Of a stretch of DNA of 37,684 nt, positions 15,143 to 20,163 are shown piece after piece. Under the pieces are notes generated by a model. The model was not told where the DNA came from, made no database searches, and worked only from the letters and a program-made list of their open reading frames with translations. The stretch comes from Minisyncoccota bacterium. Its GTDB lineage: Bacteria; Patescibacteriota; Minisyncoccia; Phycocordibacterales; UBA5272. The DNA is taken from positions 1 through 37,684 of the forward strand of contig JAGOTK010000005.1 of the NCBI GenBank assembly GCA_018061825.1. Direction: 5' to 3'. The translations under genes and the position numbers were made by a program. Numbering within the stretch: the stretch's first letter is position 1; each line of letters begins with the position of its first letter.

Positions 15143-15700
15143 ATGTGTACATTCAAAGAGATTTTGTATGGTATCAATCCTAAAGATATTGATCCTACAA
15201 TTAAAACAGTAAAAATTCAAATTAAAGATTTTGAAAAAGAGGAAAATAAAATATTAGATTTTATAGAAAGAAATTTTTATTTTAATACTCATTTTTTAAA
15301 AAAGATACCTAGTTTAGAAAAATCTTTTGAAAAAACTATTTATTTTTTTTCCTTAAATTATGATGCAAATTATATTCGCTTGTGTGAAGAATATAAATTC
15401 AGAAATTTAAAATTTGCCAATCCTTCTTTACTTTTAAAGTTTAATTTAGATAATTTTAAATTAAAAAAGAAAATGATCAATCTCACTTGCTTTCCTTCTA
15501 AATTTAAAAGTCAGCATTATGTCTTGACTTTTTCAAATAAAATGGAAAAAAAAGCTGTGACATTAGATATCAGCAATAAGGCATTTTTTTTTGATAGAAA
15601 CGATTGGTTTTGTGGAGAAAAAAGAAAGAATTTTTTAGAAAAAGTAAAAGATTTTTTGGTTAATTCTTTTAATTTGATGATAATATCCCTTAGAAAGTAG
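15143..15700 (+). CDS. Unknown 185-aa protein
   Basis: Not recognised. It is soluble, basic and rich in Phe, Lys and Asn, with two halves: a helical N-terminal part (FKEILYGINPKDIDPTIKTV then EENKILDFIERNFYF) and a beta-like C-terminal part (QHYVLTFSNKMEKKAVTLDI). There are four scattered cysteines with no clear metal pattern. The stop codon lies inside the loop-to-stem side of a terminator hairpin, so the gene and terminator overlap. The promoter is bracketed by an inverted repeat. An in-frame downstream Met is not needed; the ATG at 15143 sits about 19 bases after the probable transcription start. No function can be assigned. Confidence 0.7.
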   Translation: MCTFKEILYGINPKDIDPTIKTVKIQIKDFEKEENKILDFIERNFYFNTHFLKKIPSLEKSFEKTIYFFSLNYDANYIRLCEEYKFRNLKFANPSLLLKFNLDNFKLKKKMINLTCFPSKFKSQHYVLTFSNKMEKKAVTLDISNKAFFFDRNDWFCGEKRKNFLEKVKDFLVNSFNLMIISLRK

Positions 15701-16497: not shown

Positions 16498-18393
16498 ATG
16501 TCAAAAATTATAGGTATAGACTTAGGAACAACAAACTGTGCAGTAGCTATCATTGAAGGTGGTCAGCCAAAAATTATAGAGAATGTAGAAGGATATCGTA
16601 CAACTCCTTCTGTGGTTTCATTTTCAAAAAATGGTGAAAAATCAATAGGTGTGACAGCAAAGCGTCAATCAGTAATCAATCCAGAAAATACTATTTATGG
16701 AGTAAAGAGATATATGGGACATTCTTTTAAAGATAAAGAAGTACAAAATGACATTCCAAATGTTGCTTATAAATTAAAAGAAGGTCCAAGCAACTCAGTA
16801 CTTGTAAATCTTGGAGGAAAAGATTATAGACCAGAAGAAGTATCTGCGATGATTTTACAAAAAATAAAATCAGATGTAGAAGCAAAGCTTGGAGAAAAAA
16901 TCACAGAAGCTGTCATCACAGTACCAGCATATTTTAATGATACTCAAAAACAAGCAACAATAGACGCAGGTAAAATAGCTGGACTTAATGTAAAAAGAAT
17001 TATTCCAGAGCCTACAGCAGCTGCTCTTGCTTATGGATTTAATTCAAATAAAAATGAAAAGATAGCAGTATTCGACCTTGGAGGAGGAACTTTTGATATT
17101 TCTATTTTAGAAGTAGGAGACGGAGTAGTGGAAGTAAAATCTGTAGATGGAGATTCTCATCTTGGAGGAAGAGATATTGATCAACAAATAATTAAATTTA
17201 TTGCTGATAAATTTAAAGCAGAGACTGGTATTGATGTGATGAAAGACACTCTTGCTCTTCAAAGAATAGATGAAGCTGCAGAAAAAGCAAAGCATGAGCT
17301 ATCAACTCAATCTGAATCAGAGATTTTCCTTCCATTTCTAGCTGCAGGTCAAGACGGACCAAAGAATCTACAAATAAAATTATCTCGCTCTGAGCTTGAA
17401 AATATTGCTCGTCCATTTATAGATAAAGCAATGGAGATTACAAAAAGAGCCTTGGACAATTCTCCATTTAAAAAAGAAGAAATAAACGATGTCATCCTCG
17501 TTGGAGGACAAACAAGAATGCCAATGGTGATAGAAGCTGTAAAAAATCTTTTTGGTAAAGATCCAAATAGATCAATCAATCCAGATGAGGTAGTTGCTCT
17601 TGGAGCTGCTGTACAAGCTGGAGTGCTTCAAGGTGATGTAAAAGACATACTTCTTCTTGATGTGATACCTCTTTCATTAAGTATTGAGACAATGGGTGGA
17701 GTGGCTACAAAGCTTGTAGAGAAAAATACTACAATCCCAACACAAAGATCACAGACTTTTTCTACAGCAGCAGATAATCAGACAAGTGTAGAGATTCATA
17801 TCATACAAGGAGAAAGACCTCTAGCAGTCGACAACAAGTCTCTAGGAAGATTTATTCTTGATGGAGTTCCTCCAGCACCTCGTGGTATGCCACAAGTCGA
17901 AGTGACTTTTGATCTTGATGCAAATGGTATTTTAAATGTAAAAGCAAAAGAAAAAACAAGTGGTAAAGAGCAATCAATCAGAATAGAGGCATCGTCAGGA
18001 CTTACAGATGAAGATATTAAGAGAATGCAGACAGAGGCTGAAGCAAATGCTGATACTGACAAGAAAAAGATGGAGATTATCGAAGCTAAAAATCTTGCTG
18101 ATCAGATGATTCACACTGCTGAAAAAGCATTGAAAGATGCGGAAGGAAAAATTGGTGATGATATTAAAAATGAAGTCACAGAAAAAAGAATCAATCTGAC
18201 TTCAATCAAAAATAATCCTGATTCATCTTTAGAGCAAATACAAAAAGCCTCAGAAGATCTTTCACAAGCTATGATGAAAATTGGAGAAGCGATGAAGACT
18301 GCAAATGATCAAGCAAATCCTAATCCTTCAGAAAATCCAAATCCAGAAAATCCAAATCCTGAAAATTCTCAATCAGAAAATCCACAAGCTTAA
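16498..18393 (+). CDS. dnaK: Chaperone DnaK (Hsp70)
   Basis: A 631-residue Hsp70. The ATPase domain has [14 protein letters not shown] at the N-terminus, [38 protein letters not shown] from about residue 193 and [11 protein letters not shown]. The interdomain linker is [16 protein letters not shown] near residue 381, with Ile where most DnaKs have Thr in the DVTPLS motif. The substrate-binding domain and helical lid follow. The last 30 residues are a low-complexity tail of Asn-Pro-Glu/Ser repeats ending in PQA; the usual acidic EEVD-like or DDK end is absent. It works with GrpE upstream and DnaJ two genes downstream. Confidence 0.98.
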
Positions 18394-18405
18394 TTGAAAT
18401 TTTAT

Positions 18406-18431
18406 AGAAACACAAAATTCTTTGTGTTTCT
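18406..18431 (+). terminator. Hairpin after dnaK, weak or partial terminator
   Basis: Perfect 11-bp stem AGAAACACAAA/TTTGTGTTTCT with loop ATTC. No T run follows (AATAAGATTTT), so it may stabilise the 3' end or attenuate read-through into the next genes rather than stop transcription fully. Confidence 0.5.
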
Positions 18432-18441
18432 AATAAGATTT

Positions 18442-18450
18442 TGATAAAAT
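18442..18450 (+). promoter_or_regulatory. Extended -10 promoter, probably leaderless
   Basis: TGA-TAAAAT (-10 at 18445-18450), six bases before the ATG of the GIY-YIG gene. It implies a second transcript covering that gene and dnaJ. Confidence 0.55.
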
Positions 18451-18456
18451 AAAAAT

Positions 18457-19041
18457 ATGAAAAAATATTTATACATAATAACAAATATTTCTATGCCTGA
18501 TATGTGTAAAGTTGGCATAACTGATAATTTGGAAAACAGGATAAATAGTTTAACTAAACATTCTGGAGTGCCTACAAGATTTCAAATATATCAAACTTTT
18601 TCAGCTCCGTACATAAAAAATCCTGAAATTTTAGAACAGGAAATATTTAGTCATTTTTCTAAAGAAAGGATTAATAGAAATAGAGAATTTATAAAAATAC
18701 ACCCAGAAAAAATTATTTCTTTTATTGAAGATAATAAAAATATAGATTTAGAAAATGATACGAGTAGTAAATTTTCTAAAATAGGAATTAATAAAGGTGA
18801 TAAAATTTTCTTTACTTATAATGGAGATGTTGATCAAAATATTTTTGCTGAATATGATAAAGGAATAAATTTTAATTTTGAAGGTAAGAAAGGAGGATTA
18901 TCTAATCACACACTTAATATTCTTAATAATAAAAAGTTTTTAGAAGAAGGTAAAAAATGGAAATCTGTTCAAGGAACTTTGTATTGGTCTTTTAATGGAA
19001 AAACAATAAGAGAATTATTAAATGAAAAAGGAATAAGATAA
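18457..19041 (+). CDS. GIY-YIG (T5orf172/Mug113-type) protein with RAMA-like C-terminal domain
   Basis: A 194-residue two-part protein. Residues 1-95 follow the T5orf172/Mug113 branch of the GIY-YIG nuclease fold: KKYLYIITNISMPDMCKVGI, then LENRINSLTKHSGVPTRFQ, and a Glu near residue 62 (LEQEIFSHFS) at the position of the catalytic acid. Residues 108-194 resemble the RAMA domain of restriction-associated proteins: GDKIFFTYNGD, a central beta stretch, then WKSVQGTLYWSFNGKTIREL. The gene sits between dnaK and dnaJ, six bases before dnaJ, with its own leaderless promoter. No methylase or restriction partner is nearby. DNA binding or cleavage is inferred from the folds. The N-terminal call is firmer than the C-terminal one. 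Confidence 0.75.
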   Translation: MKKYLYIITNISMPDMCKVGITDNLENRINSLTKHSGVPTRFQIYQTFSAPYIKNPEILEQEIFSHFSKERINRNREFIKIHPEKIISFIEDNKNIDLENDTSSKFSKIGINKGDKIFFTYNGDVDQNIFAEYDKGINFNFEGKKGGLSNHTLNILNNKKFLEEGKKWKSVQGTLYWSFNGKTIRELLNEKGIR

Positions 19042-19047
19042 AATAAT

Positions 19048-20163
19048 ATGTCACAAAAAAATTATTACGAATTATTAGGAATCACAAAAAGTGCAAGTAA
19101 AGAAGAAGTAAAAAAAGCTTTTTATAAACTCGCGTCTAAATATCATCCAGACAAAAAGACAGGTGATGAAGCAAAATTTAAAGAGATAAATGAAGCTTAT
19201 CAAGTATTGTCTAACGATCAAAAAAGAAAAGAATACGATACATATGGTCAGACATTTTCTGGAGCTGGATCTCAAAATGGAGCTGGAGCAGGAGGATTTG
19301 GACAGGGACAAGGTTTTGGAGGATTTGACCAAGGAGATTTCAATAATATGAATTTTGATTTTGAAGATATAGGAGATATTTTTGGAGAAATGTTTGGCGG
19401 AGGATTTGCTGGATTTGGAGGTAGACAAAAAGAAAAAAGAGGAAGAGATATGTCTCTTGAAATAGATATTTCTTTTGAAGAATCTGTATTTGGAGTAGAG
19501 AGGAATTTTTTGATTTCAAAAGTATCTAAATGCAAGACTTGTACAGGATCTGGAGCAAAAGTCGGTACAAAAATGGAGAAATGTAAAAAGTGTAATGGTA
19601 ATGGAAAAGTTCAAGATATAAAAAGAACAATCTTTGGATCTATTCAGTCTGTACAAATTTGTAATGAATGTAATGGAAAAGGTGAATCTCCAAAAGAAAA
19701 ATGTGACACTTGCAAAGGTCATGGAATATCAAATCAAAAAGAAGATATAAAAATAAATATTCCAGCAGGTATAAATAATGGAGAAGTGGTGAGAATGAGT
19801 GGTATGGGTGAAGCTGTACAAAATGGAAGCAGTGGAGATCTATATATAAAAGTTTTAGTAAAATCACACAAGATATGGAAAAGAGAAGGAAATGATCTGG
19901 TTATGAATCATGATGTAAAATTATCTGATGCATTACTTGGAGCAAAGCATAAGATAGAAACATTGGAAGGCTATTTAGACATCAGTATTCCTCAAGGAGC
20001 TCATCCAAATGATATTTTAAGAATAAAAGGTAAAGGTATACCTTCTACTCACAATAAAGCTTTGAGAGGCGATATGCTTATAAAATTAAATATTCAGATG
20101 CCAAAAAAGATTTCAAGAAAAGCAGAAGAATTGATAGAGAAATTAAAAGAAGAAGGGTTTTAG
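19048..20163 (+). CDS. dnaJ: Chaperone DnaJ (Hsp40)
   Basis: A 371-residue type I Hsp40. The J domain (1-70) holds the HPD motif at residues 33-35, a Gly/Phe-rich linker runs to about residue 125, then come four zinc-finger repeats (CKTCTGSG, CKKCNGNG, CNECNGKG, CDTCKGHG) and two C-terminal substrate-binding beta domains (INIPAGINNGEVVRMSGMGE, and ISIPQGAHPNDILRIKGKGI). All motifs are intact. DnaJ delivers substrates to DnaK and triggers ATP hydrolysis. It is cotranscribed with the GIY-YIG gene just upstream. Its stop codon overlaps by four bases the end of the convergent gene on the minus strand. Confidence 0.98.
   Translation: MSQKNYYELLGITKSASKEEVKKAFYKLASKYHPDKKTGDEAKFKEINEAYQVLSNDQKRKEYDTYGQTFSGAGSQNGAGAGGFGQGQGFGGFDQGDFNNMNFDFEDIGDIFGEMFGGGFAGFGGRQKEKRGRDMSLEIDISFEESVFGVERNFLISKVSKCKTCTGSGAKVGTKMEKCKKCNGNGKVQDIKRTIFGSIQSVQICNECNGKGESPKEKCDTCKGHGISNQKEDIKINIPAGINNGEVVRMSGMGEAVQNGSSGDLYIKVLVKSHKIWKREGNDLVMNHDVKLSDALLGAKHKIETLEGYLDISIPQGAHPNDILRIKGKGIPSTHNKALRGDMLIKLNIQMPKKISRKAEELIEKLKEEGF

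Follow-up and report, generated by a model that had tools for sequence, protein, structure and literature searches.

The window, i.e. the whole stretch of 37,684 nucleotides that was analysed, contains at positions 18457–20163 two plus-strand genes, an ORF encoding a protein of 194 amino acids (18457–19041, ATG start) and a complete dnaJ (19048–20163; DnaJ_C, E = 2.5e-41; J domain, 4.4e-24; CXXCXGXG, 7.4e-15). The ORF starts 63 bp after the end of dnaK (16498–18393, plus strand; HSP70, 8.8e-237) and ends 6 bp before the start of dnaJ, so that the coordinates confirmed its position inside the chaperone locus as described in an earlier note on this DNA. The Pfam family matches of the GrpE, DnaK and DnaJ encoded nearby covered approximately the full length. 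The product of the ORF was assigned as a GIY-YIG (T5orf172)–RAMA protein using Pfam, PADLOC, an AlphaFold2 model, and an alignment of 26 members. The GC content of its gene is low (0.230, with 4 of 45 genes lower), but few genes have a more typical codon usage; recent insertion was thus rejected on compositional grounds, the native codon usage giving no sign of a recent arrival. The ORF is intact: neither its frame nor its catalytic residues nor its codon usage shows decay. Upstream of grpE, a further plus-strand ORF of 185 amino acids (15143–15700) with an unusually low GC content of 0.216 gave no significant family match.

Immediately after dnaK, a hairpin was predicted (18394–18444, plus strand; −19.6 kcal/mol, z = −6.3) with an inner stem formed by AGAAACACAAA (18406–18416) and TTTGTGTTTCT (18421–18431). 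The sister genome of the same genus (G001) has a hairpin of different sequence at the same place, and the interval folds there at −13.5 kcal/mol. A U-tract was not found after the dnaK hairpin, and a scan for consensus intrinsic terminators gave no site; a function of the predicted fold as terminator is plausible. Of the hairpin that had been proposed to separate the transcripts, the structure was thus recovered, but the terminator was not. The proposed leaderless promoter is weakly supported: a −10-like TAAAAT (18445–18450, plus strand), a weak motif in AT-rich sequence, is located 6 nt before the ATG of a possible leaderless start, and strong motifs of this type 4–9 nt before starts were approximately twofold enriched in the window (12 versus 5.9 in shuffles, SD 2.1), but a sigma-70 promoter scan gave nothing above chance. 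With a gap of 6 bp and the same orientation, the gene likely shares a transcript with dnaJ.

The N-terminal part of the protein (residues ~4–91, 18466–18729, plus strand) is a T5orf172-type GIY-YIG nuclease domain with conserved Y6, K18, G20, R28, E60 and E77. It matched PF10544 (T5orf172) with E = 3.4e-14 (53.6 bits, cut-off 20) and MUG113 with E = 9e-13, both above the curated cut-offs, and gave a weak match to the general GIY-YIG model. In an alignment of 26 near-full-length homologues, the invariant residues included Lys18, Gly20, Thr22, Arg28, Glu60, Arg71 and Glu77, and Tyr6, Asn10, Met13 and Arg76 were kept in at least 90% of the sequences. By analogy with known GIY-YIG enzymes, Tyr6, Arg28 and Glu77, all retained in the window protein, would be the Tyr that acts as general base, the Arg, and the Glu that binds the metal; a Glu-dependent T5orf172 nuclease has been mentioned (PMC10448857). 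The second motif is KVG or KIG family-wide and not YIG, with Lys18 at the position of its Tyr in all members. A fold search of viral models with the AlphaFold2 model gave 158 matches at E ≤ 0.001 (best E = 1.2e-7), and the named top matches were largely T5orf172 or BRO-type proteins. Profile and fold searches thus bore out the GIY-YIG similarity that the earlier note had read from the letters.

AlphaFold2 yielded a confident two-domain model of the whole protein (mean pLDDT 89.2, pTM 0.57), and the better folds found with it in the PDB included CcrM and MPND (RAMA) as well as UPF0213 and Slx1 (GIY-YIG). CcrM and MPND are the two solved RAMA proteins. Modelled alone, the C-terminal domain (residues ~102–194, 18760–19038, plus strand) reached a pLDDT of 90.5, and its top three fold matches were two chains of CcrM (6pbd; probability 1.00, TMq 0.61–0.66) and MPND (7ydw; probability 0.96, TM 0.61/0.59), followed by a match with a probability of 0.38; the E-values were weak (0.03–0.1). 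In the MPND paper, the RAMA domain of CcrM is the closest structural neighbour of MPND. Sequence profiles gave no meaningful match to PDB chains. Of the 26 full-length homologues, three gave a match to PF18755 (RAMA), the best with 2.7e-4, and one gave a match to DUF4357; the window protein itself had no PF18755 match at E ≤ 1. Since both known RAMA structures agree and homologues have profile matches, the C-terminal half is assigned, from the model and with fold E-values of only 0.03–0.1, to the RAMA fold. The second domain proposed earlier was therefore recovered by fold and in homologues; the Pfam check suggested for both domains succeeded directly for T5orf172 only.

The PADLOC model PDC-S57 matched the window protein with E = 3.1e-33 (best stretch, residues 2–99) and all 26 family members (best 3.1e-73). 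PDCs are putative defence candidates identified by guilt-by-embedding and are mostly untested (PMC12988326); a literature search for PDC-S57 itself found no paper. A scan of genome contigs with the single sequence found nothing, and close relatives were recovered using the subfamily alignment as query. With an eight-member profile, 28 of 397 genomes at the order level gave a match, distributed over 27 of 179 genera with one copy each; homologues were present in 15 of 384 genomes in the class-level and in 16 of 380 in the phylum-level draw. The family is thus sporadic, occurring in 4–7% across approximately 1,100 related genomes. One member (L046 1120–2106, genome G171) carries an extra in-frame N-terminal extension of ~125 residues. 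The closest relatives of the window protein are 49–54% identical to it. In the tree it grouped with members from families f11 and f41 (support 96/88 and 100/100) and apart from the copies of its own family in G007 and G012, which indicates that the gene was laterally acquired.

Four close relatives lie in or near restriction–modification (R-M) loci, in agreement with the expectation that this domain combination is tied to restriction genes. In a Kaiserbacteria genome (L169), hsdM-hsdS-hsdR is followed 14 bp on by the relative, and a serine-recombinase-like gene lies upstream; the relative of a Moraniibacteriota genome (L171) is located 5 bp before hsdR, with hsdM/S downstream. The relative of a Paceibacterota genome (L170) has a set of C5 methylase, NgoFVII endonuclease and Z1 protein at a distance of 1.7 kb, and that of another Moraniibacteriota genome (L174) is near a T5orf172/ResIII/Eco57I fusion. 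The latter is a 1336-aa protein (L174 984–4991, upstream of the close relative) that joins T5orf172, a ResIII helicase and an Eco57I-type methylase. In the wider family, 97 flanking proteins included, as raw counts, seven N6_N4_Mtase, four N6_Mtase and two EcoRI methylases, besides DpnII, GmrSD, recombinases and several subunits of type I and III systems, R subunits among them. Some copies were found, by reading the sequences, beside small-terminase-like or ParB-methylase-like genes, which suggests that these copies may reside on mobile elements. The window copy is flanked by dnaK and dnaJ and by no defence locus.

These neighbourhoods could mean that the window protein derives from an accessory subunit that works with HsdR/HsdM in a type I or other R-M system and has become detached; with the partner gone in this genome, the protein would be idle or repurposed. 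Two of the closest relatives directly follow or precede hsdR with gaps of 5–14 bp, and a type I methylase was not detected in the own genome of the window copy. We regard this explanation as a real but less likely alternative, because members of the wider family adjoin prophage genes as well as R-M systems of types I, II, IIG and III, the Paceibacterota relative lies outside any operon, arguing against a fixed partner, and the orphan copy has remained intact and uses codons as native genes do.

A comparison of dnaK-dnaJ intervals placed the locus in context. Among 15 genomes of the family with adjacent dnaK and dnaJ, nine gaps measured 3–59 bp and six 640–999 bp; the gap of the sister genome G001 measures 59 bp and contains a hairpin and no ORF. 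The long gaps hold different genes: the gene described here in its own genome (G000), a stretch without assignment in G009, and related minus-strand ORFs of 230–264 aa, convergent to dnaK and lacking any Pfam match, in G015, G005 and G018 (L012, L017 and L030). In G010 (L026), the 793-bp gap contains a canonical GIY-YIG gene on the opposite strand (PF01541, E = 4.6e-14). GIY-YIG genes of different subfamilies thus occupy two of the six long gaps. Because unrelated genes are found there in several family members, the dnaK-dnaJ gap tolerates insertions. Apart from the window's own locus, neither dnaK nor dnaJ was found within ~1.5 kb of the homologous loci examined, within 2.5–6 kb on either side of the four close relatives (L169, L170, L171 and L174), or in 80 viral loci. 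A conserved dnaK-dnaJ linkage of the gene was not found in relatives, and no other genome surveyed had a homologue in this interval. As G001 lacks the gene, the other homologues are located elsewhere, and relatives hold unrelated genes in the same gap, the genome comparison shows the chaperone linkage to be, as read from these sequences, a private insertion, probably a neutral one. Of the options considered in the earlier note, the best fit is a protein of anti-phage type whose position is neutral. That note had also reckoned with an occurrence in this genome only, combined with recent insertion and decay; the restriction to this genome was observed at the chaperone locus, but decay was not, with frame, residues and codons all sound. 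Capture of the ancestral dnaJ leader by the insert was considered and rejected, the alignment of the G000 and G001 leaders scoring not above shuffles (131 of 500 reached the score).

The gene might also encode a free-standing homing endonuclease and have spread to its site by a conserved gene. T5orf172 genes of phages are homing endonuclease genes that often adjoin essential genes (PMC10448857), and the different GIY-YIG gene in the dnaK-dnaJ gap of G010 would fit such behaviour. However, the C-terminal domain has the RAMA fold, a CapR/DUF723-type zinc-finger DNA-binding domain was not found in the window protein, and relatives occupy many loci with no other examined one at dnaK-dnaJ, making this origin improbable. 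A role as a DNA-binding factor linked to the chaperones, or as a defence gene under heat-shock control, might be suggested by the same-strand position 6 bp upstream of dnaJ and the probable co-transcription, but is very improbable, since the gene is absent from G001, has no such linkage elsewhere in the surveyed genomes, shares its interval with variable, unrelated genes in other family members and has no CIRCE-like operator that could be found; of the anti-phage module on heat-shock expression proposed earlier, the anti-phage type of protein was thus retained, but evidence for heat-shock expression was not obtained.

With approximately even confidence, we favour a laterally acquired, intact, stand-alone GIY-YIG–RAMA endonuclease of the PDC-S57 family, type IV-like in action, that by chance lies in the dnaK-dnaJ gap. 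The assembly (G000, 537 kb) gave no match to five DNA methyltransferase families (PF02384, PF01555, PF02086, PF00145 and PF07669), although at 93% completeness a methyltransferase could lie in the missing part. This absence is consistent with a type IV (modification-dependent) enzyme and is circumstantial evidence that the host DNA may be unmethylated; a modification-dependent nuclease would be safe in a host without a detected DNA methyltransferase. We infer that the RAMA domain would grip DNA and sense its modification state, directing the GIY-YIG domain preferentially to DNA marked as foreign by that state, which this nuclease domain would then cut. The protein would thus form a type IV-like barrier against phages or other foreign DNA; its nuclease activity and this substrate are predicted.

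GIY-YIG–RAMA fusions have been proposed as possible 6mA-dependent type IV enzymes (PMC11037411). The contacts of the RAMA domains of CcrM and MPND are to the backbone of the DNA and read no bases, and a preference of MPND for 6mA was not confirmed (PMC9963953, PMC11037411). Such backbone-only contacts argue against the favoured explanation, as does the replacement of the second GIY-YIG Tyr by Lys. Moreover, many relatives adjoin adenine methyltransferases, and there the host itself would be a target of any nuclease with a general 6mA dependence; a sequence-context specificity or another target would be required. Only tentatively do we suggest that a single-gene RAMA-guided GIY-YIG nuclease may serve as a lone modification-dependent restriction system, possibly co-expressed with dnaJ, in a streamlined genome without detected methylation.

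The window protein shares its profile with PDC-S57, a single-gene phage defence candidate; the close relatives belong to R-M loci or lie near them, whereas the window copy is alone between housekeeping genes. It has the same two domains as the GIY-YIG–RAMA fusions of PMC11037411, in which RAMA was suggested to read adenine methylation as the winged helix (wH) does. That work only names the fusion, with tests to come, and the family is characterized here from sequences and models. The combination of GIY-YIG with a small DNA-binding domain is common to the 6mA-dependent wH–GIY-YIG endonucleases Ahi29725I and Apa233I, which use a winged helix reader instead of RAMA and for which Gm6ATC dependence was shown experimentally. 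The homing endonucleases of phages (ICP1, T5-like) belong to the same T5orf172 nuclease subfamily but, unlike the window protein, are phage-borne with zinc-finger-type DNA-binding domains.

The GIY-YIG–RAMA fusion was already noted in 2024, and the window protein, intact but an orphan, belongs to a known, untested candidate-defence family. Its linkage to dnaK and dnaJ as such probably has no functional meaning. The analysis adds structural and gene-neighbourhood evidence for a family that combines GIY-YIG with a predicted RAMA fold and is often found in or beside R-M loci across the phylum. The window copy, alone in a genome without a match to five DNA methyltransferase families, is a useful test case, with which it becomes directly testable whether RAMA domains read DNA methylation.
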